NCBI RefSeq assembly: GCF_900117445.1
Contig: NZ_FPEJ01000013.1
Coordinates: 620,001 to 684,000 of the forward strand
Direction of reading: 5' to 3'
Source of the DNA: Hyphomicrobium sp. NDB2Meth4
GTDB lineage: Bacteria; Pseudomonadota; Alphaproteobacteria; Rhizobiales; Hyphomicrobiaceae
Length of the DNA: 64,000 bases
Shown: one piece after another, positions 54,609 through 64,000 of the stretch
Layout of the letters: each line of letters starts with the position of its first letter
Position numbering within the stretch: the stretch's first letter is position 1
The notes under the pieces: model-generated
What the model was told of the DNA's origin: nothing
The model's input: the letters and a program-made list of their open reading frames with translations, nothing else
Database searches by the model: none
Translations under genes and position numbers: made by a program

Positions 54609-54830
54609 TCCCACGCACGACGCCTTCGCCGCTCGATCGACCTGAAGCCTGCTCCGCGGACGTTGGCGGAAGGGGTGTCATCCAAGTGCCATTGAAAACG
54701 CGTGGCATTTTTCGATCTTGGAGATCCTGCCCATGTTCTTGCCCACGACGCCCGGTCTCCAGCAGAGAACTAGCGTTCGACCCGTCGCCCTCGTCGGCGG
54801 CAGGCCAAATAGGCCCGCCGCTCGAGCCAG

Positions 54831-55526
54831 CTAGATTGCGCTAGAACCGCTGGGCCACGAGGGTTCGCCAGCGCGGTGCAGGACGCCGAGGCCGCCGCCG
54901 GGTGGCGGATCAAGCAGCGCAATCGCCTCATCGAGATCTGAAATCAAACCGGCGATCTGGCGAGACCGCGTTTCGGCCCCCATTCGCTCAGAGCCGGTTA
55001 GAGCGCCAATCCGGTCCAACGCATCGCAATGTTGATCGTCGGCAAGGTCGCGCTGCTCGCGAAGGTGGGCGAGGATGACGGACAGCGATGCGAGCATGTC
55101 GTCGTCGCCCCTGTCGGCGGCGCGACGAGTCGATGGATCGGAAGCAAAGCCCAGCAGGCCGAGATCGACGCCACCGAGTTGGGCAAGTGTGTAATCCCTC
55201 AGCGCCATCGCCCCGCGTGCAAGTTCGCCGGCAGATGGCGGCGAAGCCGGGTCGTCGGGTGGGTTCAAGTGATTTAACTCTGCGACCCGAGCGTGGTCAG
55301 CGTGCACCGTGGCAACGATGGCATAGTCGACAGGGCTGGTGGGCCGGAAGTGCATCATCACGCACTCCAGAGCGCGTATGCGAGCGATCAGTCCGTCGGC
55401 GGCGCCCAAGTGACCGCCCGACGTGTAGAAATCCGCCTCTAGGGCGGACAGAGTGCCCCGGTCCTCGCGAACGTAGGCACTCCACAAGTGCCTGAGGTGG
55501 TTTGCAATCAACTGAATTGTGCTCAT
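54831..55526 (-). CDS. Hypothetical protein next to the integrase
   Basis: The 231-residue protein starts at ATG 55526 with GGAG 9 nt upstream. It is mainly alpha-helical by eye, with no membrane segment, and rich in leucine and aspartate: ADFYTSGGHLGAADGLIARIRAL, DDDMLASLSVILAHLREQRDL, and LISDLDEAIALL. No family is recognised. It lies downstream of int in the same direction, probably cargo of the element. About 220 bases between it and the FkbM gene hold nothing recognised. Confidence 0.6.
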   Translation of the reverse strand: MSTIQLIANHLRHLWSAYVREDRGTLSALEADFYTSGGHLGAADGLIARIRALECVMMHFRPTSPVDYAIVATVHADHARVAELNHLNPPDDPASPPSAGELARGAMALRDYTLAQLGGVDLGLLGFASDPSTRRAADRGDDDMLASLSVILAHLREQRDLADDQHCDALDRIGALTGSERMGAETRSRQIAGLISDLDEAIALLDPPPGGGLGVLHRAGEPSWPSGSSAI

Positions 55527-55635
55527 GTCGCTACTCCCACTCGGATACAAAGGGCTGGCAGTACGTTTGCGTGCCATGCGCCAGCGATCACGGCACGTTG
55601 AAGCGGCCCAGCGCGTGCTCTACGAGCAGTGCCGG

Positions 55636-56592
55636 TCAGAAAACGTTGCTCAGCAGGCGCACCCCCTGACCTGCGAGGTCGTTCAGATTGTCGATGTAAC
55701 GCGTCGTCGTGCTCGGGTTGGCGTGCCCGGCGAAGGCCTGCGCCATCGCGACATTGCCATTGCTGCGCTGGATGAGTTCGGTGATGGCGCCATGCCGCAG
55801 ACCATGCGGACGAATATGAGCGCCGATCTGGCGGCCACGTGCGGCCAGCATACGGTACACAGAGTCCCCGGTCATAGCGGCGCCACGCTTGCGGTTGGTG
55901 GCAACGACGAATAATGCGCAGACGCCGGGTGCCGCCAACTCTTGGCGTACGGATAGCCAGGCGCTCAGCGCAACGACAGTAGATGAGCAGATGGCAAGCC
56001 AATCGGCTTCGTCTGCGCCCTTTCTGTGGACACGAATGCGTGCGCCGGCCAGATCAATGTCGCCGATAGATAGGCGGGCGACCTCAGCTCGGCGCAGGCC
56101 ACGTTGAGCTAAGAGCAGCACAATCGCGCGGTCGCGCTGGGCTGTCGGCCCCCGGCTGATTTCGATCGCGTGGAGCAGTCTTGAAGTCTTCGCCAGACCT
56201 GGACCTTTCGTGTCGCGGTAGGCCCGCACTTTCAGCGACTTCACCGGTAGAACACCTGGGCCGACCTCGGCCTTCGCAGCTTCCTTCAACGCGGCGTTGA
56301 TAGCCGAAATAGCTCGGTTGATCGTCGCGGGTGCCCGCCCTTGTTCCTTAAGGTGCGTCTGGTAGCGCTCCAGCGTGTGCAAGGCGACCGAGCGGGACAT
56401 GGTGAGAAGCAGCGTCAACGCGCTGCCTAGGCTCTTCTCCCCCAACCAGGACGCAAACCGGCCCAGGTCCCCTGCATAGGCGGCCCCGGTGTTCGGCCGG
56501 GCATGCGCGAGCCAATAGGCAATGCGCTCTTGAACGGTCGGCACGGCTTGGACGAGGACGGCTGAAGTGTTGGCCACAAGCAGCTGTGACAT
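55636..56592 (-). CDS. int: Tyrosine recombinase/integrase
   Basis: The 318-residue protein has an N-terminal SAM-like DNA-binding domain and a C-terminal catalytic domain with the complete active site: Arg167 in QRGLRRAEVARL, His263 and Arg266 in RPHGLRHGAIT, His290 in GHANPSTTTRYI and Tyr299. The segments fit the XerC/D-like integrases. It should integrate and excise the element, but no att repeats were found around it. It starts 5 bases after the small RHH-like gene and is likely co-transcribed. Confidence 0.93.
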   Translation of the reverse strand: MSQLLVANTSAVLVQAVPTVQERIAYWLAHARPNTGAAYAGDLGRFASWLGEKSLGSALTLLLTMSRSVALHTLERYQTHLKEQGRAPATINRAISAINAALKEAAKAEVGPGVLPVKSLKVRAYRDTKGPGLAKTSRLLHAIEISRGPTAQRDRAIVLLLAQRGLRRAEVARLSIGDIDLAGARIRVHRKGADEADWLAICSSTVVALSAWLSVRQELAAPGVCALFVVATNRKRGAAMTGDSVYRMLAARGRQIGAHIRPHGLRHGAITELIQRSNGNVAMAQAFAGHANPSTTTRYIDNLNDLAGQGVRLLSNVF

Positions 56593-56597
56593 GCACT

Positions 56598-56849
56598 TTA
56601 CTCCTTCGGTTCGCGCTCGCCTTTGCGCTTCATCCGCTTGAGCACCGGCCCCGCATATTCCGTGATGAAAGCGACGATCGCCTCTTGCATCGTCGTGCCG
56701 TTCTCAATGGTGGCAACCTTGAAGGCAGTGCGAACGTCCTCATCAAGATGCACGAGAATCGACACTTTGCCCTCACGGCTCGGCGCCTTGTAACCTGGCT
56801 TCGGCCCCATATCGTCGTACTCCACGCCGCTCAATTCCAGCACGGACAT
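56598..56849 (-). CDS. Small ribbon-helix-helix-like protein in the int operon
   Basis: The 83-residue protein has the KVSILVHLDEDVRTAFKVATIENGTTMQEAIVAFITEY pattern: one beta strand followed by two helices, as in ParG/CopG-type RHH DNA-binding proteins. A basic, lysine-rich tail follows. GAGGAGG precedes ATG 56849. It is divergent from parA, with the palindrome at 56962 in between, and probably represses one or both promoters. The family call is by pattern. Confidence 0.65.
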   Translation of the reverse strand: MSVLELSGVEYDDMGPKPGYKAPSREGKVSILVHLDEDVRTAFKVATIENGTTMQEAIVAFITEYAGPVLKRMKRKGEREPKE

Positions 56850-56961: not shown

Positions 56962-56992
56962 ACGCCTAGGCATCCTGCATATGCCTAGGCGT
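56962..56992. promoter_or_regulatory. 12-base-arm inverted repeat, operator or partition site
   Basis: ACGCCTAGGCAT (56962-56973) and its exact complement ATGCCTAGGCGT (56981-56992) are 7 bases apart. The site lies 57 bases before parA in the divergent region. Its size is typical of a dimer-of-dimers RHH operator or a centromere-like site. Confidence 0.65.
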
Positions 56993-57049
56993 CTGACGGT
57001 GACTAGGCGGGGCAGCGAGTCGGGCCCATAAAGCCGGAGAGGTGAACCA

Positions 57050-57691
57050 ATGATCGTCATTGGAATTCTGAATTCGAAGGGAGGTGTCGGGAAAACGACG
57101 CTCACGGCCGCGTGCGCCGTGCAGGCGGCAGCGTCCAACTCAGTGTGCGTTGTCGACCTCGACAGTCAAGGCAGCTACTCGGACTGGTATACGCGGCGTG
57201 GTTCGCCCGACAACCCAGCGCTTTTGGTAGGCGAGGACCGCGCCAGCGAGGCTGTCGAAGCGCTGGGGCTCACGAGCCCATATGAGTATGTGTTTCTCGA
57301 TGGTCCGCCCGGGTCGCTCATAGTGACCGAGGACGCGGTGCGGTCGTCGACGCTGGTCGTGATCCCCGTGCGTGCGAGCGGACTCGACCTGATGGCATCC
57401 CAGGACTGCATTTCGCTTTGTCAGGAAGCCGGAACGCCCTGTGTCGCGGTCATCAACGGCAAGACGCAACATGACGGTAAGCTCGTGGAGCAGGCGCGCG
57501 AGGTGCTCGCCTCGTGGCGTGTGCCGGTCGCCGAGACAGTAGTCGCGCACCGCATTCAGTACATCAATGCGGTAACGAGCGGCAAAACTGGCCCCGAGAA
57601 GGACCGCAAGGCGGCCGAGGAAATCGGCGCTCTTTGGCGTGAAATTGAGGCGGCGGCTCGGAAGGCGGCGAAGGCGAGGGCCATAGCATGA
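57050..57691 (+). CDS. parA: ParA-family ATPase
   Basis: The 213-residue protein has the deviant Walker A KGGVGKTT at 10-17, DLDSQGSYSDW (A-prime), and FLDGPPGS (Walker B area), the short ParA/MinD-like P-loop ATPase typical of type Ib plasmid partition. It would move DNA or a protein cargo using ATP-driven gradients. GGAGAGGTGA precedes ATG 57050. Its stop overlaps the next gene's start by 4 bases. The short ParA plus a small DNA-binding partner fits a ParF/ParG-like pair. Confidence 0.9.
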   Translation: MIVIGILNSKGGVGKTTLTAACAVQAAASNSVCVVDLDSQGSYSDWYTRRGSPDNPALLVGEDRASEAVEALGLTSPYEYVFLDGPPGSLIVTEDAVRSSTLVVIPVRASGLDLMASQDCISLCQEAGTPCVAVINGKTQHDGKLVEQAREVLASWRVPVAETVVAHRIQYINAVTSGKTGPEKDRKAAEEIGALWREIEAAARKAAKARAIA

Positions 57692-58008
57692 GCGATGAGT
57701 CGAACAGCGTCGACCGCTTCATGGAGATGTTCGCCACGCTACCGGCTGAGCGCAGCGCTTTGAGGAAGCAGCGCGCCAAGGCCGAGCGACGTTCGCAGTT
57801 GACTGCTGCCCAGCGCCAGCGGCAGCAGGCGAAGCGCACCTCGCAAATCAACTTCAGATGTTCTCCGGAGTTCTTCGCCGACGCGCACCACATTAAGGGC
57901 TATCTCGCCGAGCAGCGCGGACATCCAGTCAGCGTTGCTGACGTGCTTGAAGAGGCCCTGGTGCTGCTGAAGCGGCGCCACGACTACAAAGGGACTCGCA
58001 CCGCATGA
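57688..58008 (+). CDS. Small DNA-binding-like partner of ParA
   Basis: The 106-residue protein has a basic N-terminal helix (ALRKQRAKAERRSQLTAAQRQRQQAKR) and then SQINFRCSPEFFADAHHIKGYLAEQRGHPVSVADVLEEALVLLKR. That reads as a ribbon-helix-helix domain at the C-terminal half. This layout matches ParG-type centromere-binding proteins, whose basic tail stimulates ParA ATPase. It overlaps parA by 4 bases and the next gene by 4 bases. The family call is by pattern. Confidence 0.7.
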   Translation: MSDESNSVDRFMEMFATLPAERSALRKQRAKAERRSQLTAAQRQRQQAKRTSQINFRCSPEFFADAHHIKGYLAEQRGHPVSVADVLEEALVLLKRRHDYKGTRTA

Positions 58009-59210
58009 ATCGGCTCGCTCACCCCGCCGCTGCTGCAGTCGGCATCGGCATACTCGCCTGCGTTACGCATGCCGCGATCGTTGCGACGGGCGGATATTCA
58101 ATGCCCACTGCGCCGCTCCTCATCGCACTCGCTTGCGGCCTCGCCACCGGCGCTGCCGTAACAGGTATCGCGTGGGGGCAACAGCGTCGCACGCTCGCCA
58201 TTCTGCTGGTCTTCGCGCTGGGTGCGGGCGAGGCATATGCGCTGCTGATGACGGCCGAGCGCACGCTCGCACATCGCGAAAGTCAGCAGGCGCCGCTACG
58301 TGAGGCGGCGGCAAAGCATGAGGCAGCCTTGGCGCGCGTGAATCGAGCGCGGGACAGCGCATCCCAGTCGACGGTACCATCGCCCCGTCTTCTCGCAGCA
58401 GAGGCCTCTAGACGGGCCGCTGAGGAGGCGGTGCGCTCCGAGGCGAGCAAGCCGGGATGCCGCGAGAACTGCCGGCTTCTCCTGCAGCAGGCGGTTGACG
58501 CCGCTGCTCTTGAGGTCCGCTCCGCGCGAGCCGAGATCGCCGCGCACGAAGCGAAAGAGGCGGCGGCGATCGATGCTGAAAGGCGTGCGGCGCAAGCCGA
58601 GCTCGACGCCAATCCTGCACCGCCCAGCGCGACACCGCTCGCCGACCGCCTTGGCGTTGAGGCGTGGCGGATTGACTTGCTTGCGGCGGCCCTCGCGTCC
58701 ATTGCAGCCAACGGGCTTGCTGCGATCCTCATCGCATTTGCGTCCCATAGCCGACGCCCAGAACCTCATGCACACCTGCCGACTTATGCTGAGCCGGTTG
58801 CACTGCTCGAAAGCGGGTCATCGTCGGCCGACACGTCCGATCATGGAGCGCCAGCGGAGATCGCGCCGGCGCGGCATAGGCGATCTGCCGACGAGGCGGC
58901 CCGGTTCGCCTGCGATGTGCTTCGTCCTGACGATAGTGGACGCGTTCGGCTGCGCGACATCCTTCCCGCGTATCACAACTGGTGTGCAAGCCGTGGCCTA
59001 GACCCCCTAGCAGTCGACGAAATCGGCGCGGCGCTAGCCGCGCTCATTTCCCGAGCGGGCCTTCGCTACGGCGAGGCCAGCGGCGAGCCGGTGATCGTAG
59101 GCATCGTTTGGGCTGATGCTGGTGCGACTCTAGCGTCACCGCGGGATACCAAGGGCACCACGCCCTCCACTTCGGCATCGTTGGCACAACTAGCAACGAC
59201 GCCGATGTAG
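58005..59210 (+). CDS. Multi-pass coiled-coil membrane protein of the par operon
   Basis: The 401-residue protein has three N-terminal membrane segments (about 8-30, 36-58, 63-85), a long alanine/glutamate-rich coiled-coil (about 85-205) with one CRENC motif, a fourth membrane segment (about 225-248) and a soluble C-terminal domain. This last part (about 295-375, ACDVLRPDDSGRVRLRDILPAYHNWC) looks like a winged-helix of phage primase or replication proteins. Its coupled translation with parA suggests joint action. No family is recognised. Confidence 0.72.
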   Translation: MNRLAHPAAAAVGIGILACVTHAAIVATGGYSMPTAPLLIALACGLATGAAVTGIAWGQQRRTLAILLVFALGAGEAYALLMTAERTLAHRESQQAPLREAAAKHEAALARVNRARDSASQSTVPSPRLLAAEASRRAAEEAVRSEASKPGCRENCRLLLQQAVDAAALEVRSARAEIAAHEAKEAAAIDAERRAAQAELDANPAPPSATPLADRLGVEAWRIDLLAAALASIAANGLAAILIAFASHSRRPEPHAHLPTYAEPVALLESGSSSADTSDHGAPAEIAPARHRRSADEAARFACDVLRPDDSGRVRLRDILPAYHNWCASRGLDPLAVDEIGAALAALISRAGLRYGEASGEPVIVGIVWADAGATLASPRDTKGTTPSTSASLAQLATTPM

Positions 59211-59230: not shown

Positions 59231-59345
59231 TGCCCAACACCGCCAACGCCGCCAACATCGCCAAGAATCCGCGCGGCGCCATTTGGCGGTCTGCGCCGTT
59301 GGATGACCCATGTACGCCAAGGCCGCCAATACCGCCAAGGCGGTG
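59231..59345. repeat. Two triplets of 9-bp direct repeats (CCGCCAA core) with one inverted copy
   Basis: CGCCAA-core repeats begin at 59240, 59249, 59258 and again at 59314, 59323, 59332, each exactly 9 bases apart. TTGGCGG at 59283-59289 is an inverted copy, and the last repeat forms ACCGCC/GGCGGT. The two triplets are in different frames and not inside a gene, so the repeat is in DNA rather than protein. This is the form of an iteron or centromere-like array. Confidence 0.75.
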
Positions 59346-59456: not shown

Positions 59457-60095
59457 ATGACGACAAAGCCAGCAATGAATGGCCTGACGAAGGACTTCCA
59501 CCTGCAGGTGCCGATTACGGACGAGGTGGGCAGCGCTTGGACGAAGATCACTCTTCGCGAGCCGACACTTGCCGACATGATTGCCGTCGAGCGTAAGGTG
59601 ACTGCGCTAGGGAATGCGTTCACAGCAGATATGCTGTCGCTGCTCTCTAATTTGCCGGAGACCGCGGTCCGCAAACTCAAGTTCAGGGATTTGCGTCCCA
59701 TTGAAAGGTGGCTCAACTCGCTCCAGCACACCGTGGCCGATGATGATCCCCTGGAGGCTGTGCCCCAGCGCACGTTCAAACTACTCGTCCCACTGCAGAC
59801 GAACGGCGCGCCTATAACGTCGCTGACAGTTCGGGAGCCGGACCTCGACTGCGGCATCATGGTCGACAAGTTCAAGGGAGCCGCTGAGCAGCAAGCGGCG
59901 ATGATCGCGGCGCTTTCAGATCAGGTTATCCCCGTGATCACCCGGATGGCGATGCGCGACGTACGCCGCATCGATGCGTGGCTCAATTTTTTCTCGTTCG
60001 CTGGCGCCTTCTCGCCCGAGACGGGGGAGGGGATGTCGGCAAATCCAAGCTCCGCGGATGGCGTGACGTCGCCGCAGTTCTCGCAAGCGAGCTGA
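59457..60095 (+). CDS. Phage tail assembly chaperone, two-domain form
   Basis: The 212-residue protein starts at ATG 59457 with GGAGGG 6 nt upstream. It resembles the P2 gpE/Mu gp41 tail assembly chaperone family. The domain occurs twice: residues 13-89 (LREPTLADMIAVERK ... FRDLRPIERWLN) and 106-178 (VREPDLDCGIMVDKF ... MRDVRRIDAWLN). The two copies align end to end. Just after the second copy lies a slippery heptamer (59987-59993). The tape-measure gene follows directly, the standard order. Confidence 0.82.
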   Translation: MTTKPAMNGLTKDFHLQVPITDEVGSAWTKITLREPTLADMIAVERKVTALGNAFTADMLSLLSNLPETAVRKLKFRDLRPIERWLNSLQHTVADDDPLEAVPQRTFKLLVPLQTNGAPITSLTVREPDLDCGIMVDKFKGAAEQQAAMIAALSDQVIPVITRMAMRDVRRIDAWLNFFSFAGAFSPETGEGMSANPSSADGVTSPQFSQAS

Positions 60096-60187
60096 GCACG
60101 GGATTGGACCAGATCCGCAAGCTTCCGCTGACGGAAGCTGCCGAGTGGATGGGGTCCCTGCGGCGCATTAACGAACCGGAAGCTTGA
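59993..60187 (+). CDS. -1 frameshift extension of the tail assembly chaperone
   Basis: A T TTT TTC heptamer at 59987-59993 lets ribosomes slip back one base. Reading then continues at CTC 59993 for 64 codons to the stop at 60187, giving a protein of about 243 residues. The added part has LDQIRKLPLTEAAEWMGSLRRIN, coding-like and typical of gpE'-type tails. It has no good start of its own. Tailed phages widely keep this frameshift between chaperone and tape measure. Confidence 0.65.
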   Translation, partial: LVRWRLLARDGGGDVGKSKLRGWRDVAAVLASELSTGLDQIRKLPLTEAAEWMGSLRRINEPEA

Positions 60188-60191
60188 AGCA

Positions 60192-62276
60192 ATGGCCAAC
60201 CTTACGTCGAGCCTCGTGATCAGCCTGCGGGACCAAGTGTCTGGCCCCGCCGGCGGCGTATCGAAATCGCTCCTGAACATTCAGAGGGCGGCGGAATCGA
60301 TCGCGAGGGTCTCCTCGAAGCTGAACCTCGGCACCAAGAACCTGCTCAACCCATTGAAGGACGTCGGAACCGACAACCTCGACGAAACCTATTACCAGTG
60401 GGATCAGCTGGCTCAGCAGATCGCTGCCATATCCGAGACCGGCGCCGACGGAATGATGCGTCTCAAAGACGCCATCCGACGTGTGTCGACGGAGTCGAGG
60501 ACGCCGCCGCAGGACCTCATGGCGGCGGCAAAGGCCTGGCTCGAGCTGGGCAATAGCCTCGACACGTTTGAGAAGATCGCGGCGATCGCCGCGAAGACGT
60601 CGCGCATCACCGGCGTCTCTCCCGCGCAACAGATGACGGGCGTCAACTCAATTTTGCGCGCCTACGGCAAGGACCCGAACAACATCGAGGATGTTAGCCA
60701 CTTCGAGGAACTCTATCTCGTCGCGTCGAAGGGGATGGTGGGCGGTGCGCACGCCTTCGAGGAGGCGATGAAGACGTTCGCGCCGGTTGCCAAGGCCACG
60801 GGAATGACAGTCGAAGAGGCCGCAGCCCTGGTGCAAACGTTGGGCGGCCAGTTCGAGGCAGGTGAGATCGGCAACGCGCTGAAGACCGGCTTCGTGCGAC
60901 TGCTTCGGCCACGATCGGGAGCCCTTCCGCAGCTGCGCGCGGCCGGCATCGACTACACCAAGTGGTTCAATTTCGACATCGACAAGCTGCAGCGTGAGGG
61001 CGGACTGGATTTCGCGGAGCGACTGCGCGGCATGGGGCGTCGTGTCTCCCCAGAACTAGCGCGGGAGATCAATGAAGCGTTTGAGACGGCAGACCTTTCA
61101 GAGGGCGCTGGGCCGCTGCAGGATAAACTGACGGCGATCCTCACTGACGCTTACGGGCACTCGACCCGGAAAGGAAAGAAGGTCCTCGACGGCCAGACAA
61201 CCAAGGATATTGCAGCCGCCGTCGCCCAGCACGTCCAAGCCTATCGCGACGCGATGAAGGGTTTCAACGTTGCGCAGTTTCTCGATGACCTATCGAAGCA
61301 AGTGAACAATGTGCCTTTGCTCGACTCACTGTTCGGTGTGAACCGTCTGCCCCAGTTCCTCGATCTGCTTCGCCAGGCGGGCCACTTCCGCGATCGCCTC
61401 GAGAAGATCATTCACGACATGCCGGGCGCCATCGATCGCAAGTGGAAGGAATTCTTCGACAAGGCCGATTCCTACTCGAACGCGGTCAATAGGCTCACCA
61501 ACGCATGGGACAATCTTTGGAAGAAGATGGCCGACACGGGCGTCGGGTCCGACATCGCCACGATCATGAACGGTGTCGCACGAGCAGTGGAATGGTTGCA
61601 AAGCCTCGACCCCGTATGGTCCCGCATGTTTTTCTGGATGACCACAATTGGGAGCGCCGCCGCGGCTATTGTTGCGCCGTTGCTGCTCCTTGCGAAGCTG
61701 CGCAAGCTGTTCACCGTAGGCAAAGCCGCGATAGGTGCAGGGGAAGCTGCGGCCGGTGGCGCCGCGGCCGGCGCCGGAACGGCTGGTGTCGCAGTCGGTG
61801 GCGCCGCAGTGGCCAAGCGTTTCGGCCTCAAAGCGCTCGCTCGCATTCTTGGTTGGCCGCTCGCGTTGGCGCTTGCCGGCTATGATGCCTATGAGGGCTA
61901 CCAGAAGGATGGGTGGAAAGGCGCGATCCTCAATCCGCTCACGTTCGGGTTCTATTCGAGTGGCGATGAAGGCGCCGAGCCGAACGCAGCGCAGACCGCT
62001 GTCGCTGGTGGCCGCGCCGTCGCGAGCGGCAAGGATGCCGGGCTCTCGGAAATTCAGACCCAGGCGCAGGCCATTCCAGCCGCGGTCGCCGGTGCAATGG
62101 CGCAGGTCCGCACCATCCTCGCCGGCGTTGATCTGACGGCCGAGGGGCGACGGGCAATGCAAACGTACGCGAACGGGCTAGCTGAAGGTGCCTCGGCCGC
62201 TGCTGCGGCCGCCCGCGCCGCTGGCCACCAAGTGGGAAGCGCTATGAGAGGCGCGTATTCGGACGGAGGACGATGA
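60192..62276 (+). CDS. Phage tail tape-measure protein
   Basis: The 694-residue protein starts MANLTSSLVISLRDQVSGPAGGVSKSL, a common tape-measure opening. It then has the TP901-type segment (ISETGADGMMRLKDAIRRVSTES ... MTGVNSILRAYG ... AFEEAMKTFAPVAKATGMTVEEAAALVQ). Hydrophobic runs lie near 475-500 and 520-550, and an alanine/glycine-rich C-terminal third follows. It sets tail length and helps DNA injection. No further tail genes follow, so the tail module is incomplete. Confidence 0.9.
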   Translation: MANLTSSLVISLRDQVSGPAGGVSKSLLNIQRAAESIARVSSKLNLGTKNLLNPLKDVGTDNLDETYYQWDQLAQQIAAISETGADGMMRLKDAIRRVSTESRTPPQDLMAAAKAWLELGNSLDTFEKIAAIAAKTSRITGVSPAQQMTGVNSILRAYGKDPNNIEDVSHFEELYLVASKGMVGGAHAFEEAMKTFAPVAKATGMTVEEAAALVQTLGGQFEAGEIGNALKTGFVRLLRPRSGALPQLRAAGIDYTKWFNFDIDKLQREGGLDFAERLRGMGRRVSPELAREINEAFETADLSEGAGPLQDKLTAILTDAYGHSTRKGKKVLDGQTTKDIAAAVAQHVQAYRDAMKGFNVAQFLDDLSKQVNNVPLLDSLFGVNRLPQFLDLLRQAGHFRDRLEKIIHDMPGAIDRKWKEFFDKADSYSNAVNRLTNAWDNLWKKMADTGVGSDIATIMNGVARAVEWLQSLDPVWSRMFFWMTTIGSAAAAIVAPLLLLAKLRKLFTVGKAAIGAGEAAAGGAAAGAGTAGVAVGGAAVAKRFGLKALARILGWPLALALAGYDAYEGYQKDGWKGAILNPLTFGFYSSGDEGAEPNAAQTAVAGGRAVASGKDAGLSEIQTQAQAIPAAVAGAMAQVRTILAGVDLTAEGRRAMQTYANGLAEGASAAAAAARAAGHQVGSAMRGAYSDGGR

Positions 62277-62826: not shown

Positions 62827-62981
62827 GACCGCCTCCCTCGTGACAAATGAAGATTGGTCGCCGATTCTCCGGCCCAGCCATACGGTGGCGCCTGCGCTTT
62901 CCACAATCAGTTGCGCTGGGTGTTTGACTGCAACTGTCGATGGCGACTAGCGTCTTCGGAATTCTGGTGGGGTTGAGCAAA

Positions 62982-64000
62982 ATGTCGGAACCCGAAAAGC
63001 AATTGCATATTGTCGAAGACGAGGACACCGGGGACCAGTTTGTCATCTACACCACGACGGCAGGCGTCGAACTTGACGTTCGATTCGAAAACGAGGAGCC
63101 CTGGTTCACGCAGGCACAGTTGGCGAACATCTTCGGCGTCGACGTCCGCACGGTTAACGAGCACATTCAAAAATTTGTGGCCGAGGGCGAACTCGATAAT
63201 TCAACTATCCGGGATTTCCGGATAGTTCGCGAGGAAGGCGGTCGACGTGTAACTCGCCCGATCTCGCACTATGGATTGGACGTAGCTTTTTACGTTGGTT
63301 ACCGGGTCAACTCCGGCCAAGGCAAGCTGTTTCGCCGCTGGGCTACGACGATGCTCGTACAGCTGGCCACCAAAGGCTTCGTGATTAACGCTCGCAAGCT
63401 TAAGAACGAGCCGGATCACTTCGCCGATCTCCGGCGACTCATCCAGGATATTCGAGCCAGCGAGGCGAACCTCTACGCCGAGCTTCGTCGCATCGTCTCG
63501 ATGTGCAACGATTACGACCCCGGTTCTAAGGAGAGCAGGAACTTCTTCGCACTGTTCCAGAATCGGCTGCTCTTCGCCATTACCGGCCACTCAGCAGCGG
63601 GCATCCTCACTTCGCGTGCGGACGCGAGGCAGCCCAACATGGGTCTAAAAGCGTGGAAGGGTAACGAGCCGTTGCAGACCGATGTCTTGACGGCCAAGAA
63701 CTACCTGGGCGACCTCGAGCTTGAGGACCTAAACCGCCTCGTGGGAATGGTATTGGACTTCTTCGAAGATCAGGTGAAGCGAGGATTTCTCGTGTCGATG
63801 GCAGACGCCGAGGCAAAGCTGCAAGAGATCTTCACCGTCAACCGGCGACTGATGATGCCTGGGCTCGGGAAGCCATCCCACAACGCCGCTGAAAAGCATG
63901 TCAAGGAGCAATATAAAATCTTCGACTTAGCACGTCGCGACGAGCGCAAGCGTCTCGCCCTCGATGACTTGAACACCGCCTTTGCCCAGCTAGCTGCGCC
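62982..64000 (+). CDS. RhuM-family protein, cut by window edge
   Basis: From ATG 62982 the frame is open to the right edge (339 codons). It matches the RhuM (COG3943) family: ELDVRFENEEPWFTQAQLANIFGVD holds an HTH-like part, with VNEHIQKFVAEGEL, SHYGLDVAFYVGYRVNS, FRRWATTML and the FFALFQNRLLFAITGHSAAGI segment. RhuM was named from Salmonella pathogenicity island 3; its action is unknown. Such genes are frequent in defence or mobile islands. The C-terminus is not seen. Confidence 0.85.
   Translation, partial: MSEPEKQLHIVEDEDTGDQFVIYTTTAGVELDVRFENEEPWFTQAQLANIFGVDVRTVNEHIQKFVAEGELDNSTIRDFRIVREEGGRRVTRPISHYGLDVAFYVGYRVNSGQGKLFRRWATTMLVQLATKGFVINARKLKNEPDHFADLRRLIQDIRASEANLYAELRRIVSMCNDYDPGSKESRNFFALFQNRLLFAITGHSAAGILTSRADARQPNMGLKAWKGNEPLQTDVLTAKNYLGDLELEDLNRLVGMVLDFFEDQVKRGFLVSMADAEAKLQEIFTVNRRLMMPGLGKPSHNAAEKHVKEQYKIFDLARRDERKRLALDDLNTAFAQLAA

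Follow-up and report, generated by a model that had tools for sequence, protein, structure and literature searches.

What is the function of the short direct repeats that separate a ParA partition operon from phage tail genes in Hyphomicrobium sp. NDB2Meth4? Within the 64,000-nucleotide stretch of DNA that we analysed (the window), the exact hexamer CGCCAA occurs six times, with starts at 59241, 59250, 59259, 59315, 59324 and 59333. These copies form two triplets on the + strand, w1 (59241..59264) and w2 (59315..59338), each of three units with a step of exactly 9 bp, and the step from one triplet to the other is 74 bp, so that the two are in different frames. One inverted copy (59283..59288, - strand) sits inside the 50-bp gap separating the triplets. 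In all of these respects the array is as the original prediction had described it from the letters of the DNA. The closing palindrome that it had reported is also present (ACCGCCAAGGCGGT, 59331..59344, overlapping the last unit) but proved to be interrupted, with 6-bp arms (ACCGCC and GGCGGT) flanking AA. A degenerate additional unit, GCCCAA, lies at 59232. The array was also rightly placed outside genes, as the upstream gene for a 401-aa membrane-like protein (mem401) stops at 59210 and the most likely start of the downstream tail-chaperone gene is 59457, preceded by GGAGG; an ORF open from 59310 overlaps w2, and its Pfam-matched portion begins at 59457. As for function, the original prediction offered two candidates, the centromere-like (parS/parC) site of the small ParA partner and the iterons of a replicative element.

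The array stands out from its surroundings by several measures. CGCCAA is the top hexamer cluster in the last 16 kb of the window, and no hexamer exceeded four copies per 110 bp in 100 shuffles of that region. The spaced triplet pattern occurs in the window twice exactly and five times with up to three mismatches, where shuffles expect 0.25. Across the 4.08-Mb genome there are two exact matches, both of them this array, and four in total at up to one mismatch, three of which fall in the island described below. A motif-free scan for trimers (units 8-10 bp apart that agree in 6 or more of 7 columns) returned three in a 15.2-kb stretch covering the island (59240, 59314 and 68271), all of one motif, and none in 54 kb of host DNA. 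The third trimer, w3, lies past the window end, within the 3' end of the integrase ORF. In viral contigs the two-trimer CGCCAA pattern was also found, at 6 loci. At each of them the first match lies in a low-complexity repeat within a frame open for 222-312 codons, and queries with island proteins had no hit at any of the loci; a reading of the array as coding repeats was dropped. The corresponding pattern of the sister island introduced below had no matches in viral contigs.

The array belongs to an integrated element. A 15-bp left attachment repeat (TTGGCGGAAGGGGTG, 54663..54677) has its second copy at 69673, at a tRNA-Ser outside the window, which defines an island of about 15.0 kb. From the left end, this island encodes a 248-aa protein with no assigned function (54831..55577, - strand), a XerC/D-like tyrosine recombinase of 318 aa (55636..56592, - strand) and an 83-aa ribbon-helix-helix protein, RHH83 (56598..56849, - strand, divergent from parA; its Pfam RHH_10 match is below the cut-off). 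The partition operon follows, and on the far side of the array are, all on the + strand, the tail assembly chaperone (Phage_TAC_7, 59457..60095), a tape measure protein (60192..62276) and a RhuM-family gene (62940..64000, continuing past the window end to 64034). The island also encodes an HTH_17 protein (77 aa), an AAA_25/RepA-like protein (466 aa), two TerS-like proteins (one of them Terminase_2-like) and a P4-type integrase with Arm-DNA-bind/Phage_integrase matches and an arm-binding domain. From the integrase start to the attachment repeat, just beyond the window (L005:19529-19652), the heptamer CATGGGC is present four times, with copies in either orientation, and these copies are likely to be integrase arm sites. 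With those repeats between the integrase and the right attachment site, and the CGCCAA array 4.6 kb from the left one, the array itself was rejected as a set of arm-type sites.

As judged from its gene content, the island resembles a phage satellite. We found no capsid, portal or large terminase among 16 island proteins from the larger ORFs, compared with Pfam (13 also with PHROGs), and no large terminase among the scanned proteins of the sister island either. Each of the two islands encodes two TerS-like proteins (L005:14503-15705 here and L065:1781-3159 in the sister island), three of the four with repeated family matches. An integrase with attachment repeats, an AlpA-type regulator together with a rep gene, and TerS without large terminase or capsid are all features of PICI-type satellites. 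The single transcription direction described for Gram-negative PICIs is not seen; transcription is two-directional, with left arm genes on the + strand and right arm genes on the - strand.

The position of the array directly downstream of the parA operon speaks for a partition site. This operon encodes a ParF-like ParA of 213 aa (57050..57691, + strand), a 106-aa partner (57688..58008, + strand) whose AlphaFold model (mean pLDDT 76) has an RHH-like order of elements, and the 401-aa protein, with membrane-like segments seen by eye (58005..59210, + strand), as a conserved third gene. We searched for ParA in 103 genomes of the family and in viral contigs, and compared 11 loci carrying parA and the membrane gene (L028-L038; nine genomic and two in viral contigs). 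ParA, RHH-like partner and membrane-like protein (57050-59210) form a conserved operon in these loci, and in several of them a tRNA gene or integrase is no more than a few kb away. The 401-aa protein has no convincing family match; the 106-aa partner matched nothing in phage or plasmid records at E 0.01 and nothing in viral contigs. For ParA there was no plasmid match at E 1e-20, and 10 phage records contain distant relatives.

Under the partition reading, the array would be the centromere-like site (parS/parC) bound by ParA together with the 106- or the 83-residue RHH protein. Type Ib centromeres such as TP228 parH, as treated in an excerpt of PMC5016525, likewise combine a ParF-like ParA, an RHH-like partner and short repeats near the operon, and the same excerpt records par sites upstream, downstream or at multiple positions. 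The original prediction held that its proposal would fail if relatives with the same operon lacked the repeats, and this is largely what a motif search across them returned: a trimer of the core CGYCA (Y being C or T) occurs only in L030, one of the 11 par-operon loci. There are none in the other ten, nor in three more loci with the membrane gene (L061-L063), whereas a type Ib site should be conserved with its operon. What recurs instead is a set of different repeats, most of them containing CTAG (TGCCTAGGCA, GCTAGC etc.), within about 130 bp upstream of parA, present in the window and most relatives and the top hexamer cluster, or tied for it, in five of these (L028, L029, L031, L034 and L036). 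In the window they comprise GCCTAGGC (at 56964 and 56983) and CTAGGC (57003), spanning 56964..57008, and they are the better candidate partition operator or parS. In addition, nine aligned partner sequences differ little in the putative DNA-contacting strand, where Q and R are invariant, and the array is absent from relatives whose strand, like that of the window, reads QIN(F/Y)R. We therefore dropped the partition reading, which is very unlikely, given the absence of the array from most operon relatives.

The locus that does have the trimers, L030, is that of the closest relative, G034, the one relative found to carry the whole module: identities are 90% for ParA, 88% for RHH83, 81% for the recombinase, 68% for the partner, 52% for the membrane protein, 40% for the 248-aa protein and 39% for the tail chaperone. 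There is no CGCCAA in this sister island, but GCGTCA occurs five times at the equivalent intergenic place, so that the motif has diverged around a CGYCA core. Within the 18-kb locus a second cluster equals the GCGTCA one, and 2 of 100 whole-locus shuffles matched it as well; when only the intergenic stretch was shuffled, none of 1000 trials did. In its strict form, the GCGTCA triplet pattern is found twice in the 4.3-Mb genome, both times inside the island. The motif-free scan gave three trimers of one motif (220968, 221033 and 231180) and an unlike fourth in the integrase region (235466); a loose CGYCA trimer also lies in the island at L030:15796. Trimers c1 and c2 occupy the site of the window pair, with the membrane gene on one side and the tail chaperone on the other; c3 starts at the stop codon of rep, directly ahead of a TerS-like gene. 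Both islands thus have two trimers in their left arm and a single inverted one in their right arm. RHH83 is 88% identical between the islands although the motif has altered, a further argument against a partition site. The partner strand reads QINFR in the window and QIGFR in G034, so that, against the strand argument above, a changed DNA specificity of that protein is possible.

Similar trimers accompany replication genes in related elements. Searches with the G034 rep of 397 genomes from the order and 103 from the family gave 33 loci with long matches, the query included (the rep634 set); the RepA-like protein of the window was searched in the 103 genomes and nine relatives were fetched (the rep466 set). 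Neither set was chosen for arrays, weaker or partial rep matches were excluded from the counts, and an array was defined, with no motif given, as an exact hexamer present at least three times at 8-10 bp. Arrays were found in 16 of the 33 rep634-type loci, 18 in 140 kb compared with 0-1 per shuffle (n=10). Fifteen of these 18 lie between -150 and +700 bp of the 3' end of the rep match, in 13 of the 33 loci, where random placement within loci predicts 3.5 and never reached 15 in 20,000 trials; without the query the figures are 14 of 17 arrays and 12 of 32 loci. Six of seven arrays of the rep466 set (0.32 under random placement) are likewise near the rep 3' end, in four of nine regions, and in two of these four the trimers come in pairs, 27-29 bp apart. 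Outside rep regions, 620 kb of background (omitting only L005, L030, L036 and the rep regions) contained four arrays, of which L092 has one and L094 three, the latter all within a collagen-like coding stretch. L030 has one CCTCGC array outside the island. Of the fetched rep634-type regions, the eight in which no array was known beforehand yielded two, neither near rep. Trimers of 8-10-bp spacing are thus strongly enriched at the rep 3' end of related elements.

The motif CGTC, close to the CGYCA of the islands, occurs at least twice in 15 of the 18 rep634-type arrays, and CGTCCG is common to the array-bearing elements of one rep clade. In one rep clade the rep-linked arrays fall within the reading frame of rep itself, and protein repeats might account for part of them. 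L155, L165 and L191 have their two sets in inverted orientation, the window island in direct orientation. Extra trimers, with similar or different motifs, were seen elsewhere in some elements, also upstream of the integrase (L157 at 5146, 11439 and 14666; L155 at 14108; L167 at 17410).

This distribution bears on three further readings of the triplets. The first takes them as boxes for an HTH_17/AlpA winged-helix regulator or excisionase of the Vis/Cox type, bound head-to-tail on the 9-bp repeats and switching the neighbouring operons. P2 Cox and P4 Vis have binding boxes, the window island encodes an HTH_17 protein and the G034 island a Phage_AlpA, and the triplets precede the tail operon as well as, in G034, a TerS-like gene. 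Precedents for winged-helix proteins on such sites come from excerpts of two studies, in which each 9-bp direct repeat accommodates one BldC protomer (PMC5859096) and Mesorhizobium RdfS forms BldC-like filaments (PMC11963761). The arrays, however, gather at the rep 3' end, with the AlpA-like gene 1.7-9.5 kb away in the 15 elements where one was found (some of the matches weak), and three elements of the same rep clade that share the CGTCCG motif (L154, L155 and L168) have AlpA-like proteins that look unlike by eye. We consider this reading unlikely. The second, that the triplets are packaging-initiation (pac/cos-like) sites for the TerS-like proteins, would suit islands with two such proteins each and no large terminase among those scanned, and also the location of c3 directly before a TerS-like gene; it is highly unlikely, given that the ORFs after rep and array varied, by eye, in 16 other elements and that the window island has no trimer ahead of TerS. 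The third would have a helper-phage regulator, or one of the island, act at the promoter of the tail-chaperone and tape-measure genes, with the triplets as its operator or activator sites. In both islands the tail-chaperone gene does have the pair upstream of it, but similar trimers are found beside rep in elements without a match to the island tail chaperone, and we regard this as the least probable of the readings weighed here.

The reading towards which we lean, with some reserve, is that the two triplets are iteron-type, Rep-binding sites of the island's own replication system, that of a satellite-like replicon, as the second proposal of the original prediction had it. It draws on direct observations: the array, the island that contains it, the co-location of such arrays with rep genes, and the diverged array at the equivalent place in G034. 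Together with the third trimer 9 kb away, the triplets would most likely be part of the replication origin. The island would first excise; each triplet would then take up initiator copies in head-to-tail order, one for every 8-9 bp, and the bound initiator would load the helicase. We infer that the initiator is most likely the island's RepA-like helicase protein, acting through its C-terminal end, which looks helix-turn-helix-like by eye in an alignment. One-per-9-bp binding by BldC and the RdfS filaments make both this C-terminal domain and the AlpA-type protein possible binders; the arrays resemble the sites of those proteins as 9-bp direct repeats suiting one winged-helix protomer each, and differ from what the two excerpts describe in lying beside rep rather than AlpA, with a binder that we infer. 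The window rep and the G034 rep have only an N-terminal stretch in common, yet their motifs share a core. That stretch was dropped as the iteron binder because most rep634 matches start after it; four regions fetched for it (L186-L189) contained no exact trimer and one loose CGYCM match. Against the iteron reading, the window pair lies 6.4 kb from rep, a placement whose role at an origin is conjectural, and 20 of 33 and 5 of 9 loci have no exact array near rep. The location of w3 in the integrase ORF, the arrays inside a rep reading frame, the limited similarity of the two rep proteins and the direct orientation of the window sets also count against it.

Comparison with known satellites places the array close to, but not within, a described type. 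PICI origins, according to an excerpt of PMC6092414, have two iteron sets immediately 3' of rep with an AT-rich region between them, and some PICIs carry capsid genes or lack terS. Common to PICIs or SaPIs, as portrayed there, and to our island are the two short iteron sets, the integrase, the AlpA-type gene, the rep and the TerS homologue, and in many related elements the sets are at the rep 3' end as in PICIs. The window pair instead lies between the par operon and the tail genes, far from rep, and its gap, at 36% AT compared with 37% for the whole window, lacks the AT-rich melting region of PICI origins. Other differences from the elements portrayed in that excerpt are that the sets are direct, that a third set lies elsewhere and that a ParA operon and a tape measure gene are present. 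Since two sets are present, with a different position, no AT-rich gap and transcription that is not one-directional, we call the array iteron-like rather than classing it as a PICI origin.

A second comparison is with satellite P4, in which the ori and crr iterons lie at two separate places. Repeated sites at two places in one satellite and a P4-type integrase are common to both elements, and differences are the motif and the Rep, which is RepA-like here and not the P4 alpha protein.

The tail genes are a feature of the island in their own right, as only a chaperone and a tape measure gene (59457-62276) were found of a tail. A 69-aa ORF (59978-60187) overlaps the chaperone gene beside a T run near 59987, in what we take to be a resemblance to a frameshift of the P2 E/E' type; this ORF has a relative in G034 (40% identity), which suggests that the chaperone may be functional. 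The chaperone had no match in viral contigs and one weak partial match outside its own genome in the 397 genomes of the order, a set that does not include G034 and G080. A region of G080 (L094, L086; G080:C55) encodes homologues of the chaperone (41%) and of the tape-measure end (41%) plus other shared genes, and is possibly a relative of a helper.

Taken further, these elements might represent a class of Hyphomicrobiales integrated elements that use paired 8-10-bp trimers as Rep-loading sites, with one partition-bearing satellite lineage that has its own tail chaperone and tape measure and iterons split, ori/crr-like, between two distant loci. We put this forward as a speculative and rather doubtful extension; if it were true, the same trimer sites could link replication to the expression of the tail genes. 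Among the best matches of our literature searches, read as titles and the starts of abstracts, there were no phage satellites of this kind from Hyphomicrobium or Rhizobiales, and the best matches on satellite iterons or origins and on satellites with a tape measure included no such elements in this order. On the iteron reading, an unexplained repeat becomes, for this group of bacteria, a candidate origin of a satellite-like element, and 8-10-bp trimers at the rep 3' end offer a simple signature for finding such elements. The island also suggests that some satellites may bring tail-length genes and a ParA system of their own.
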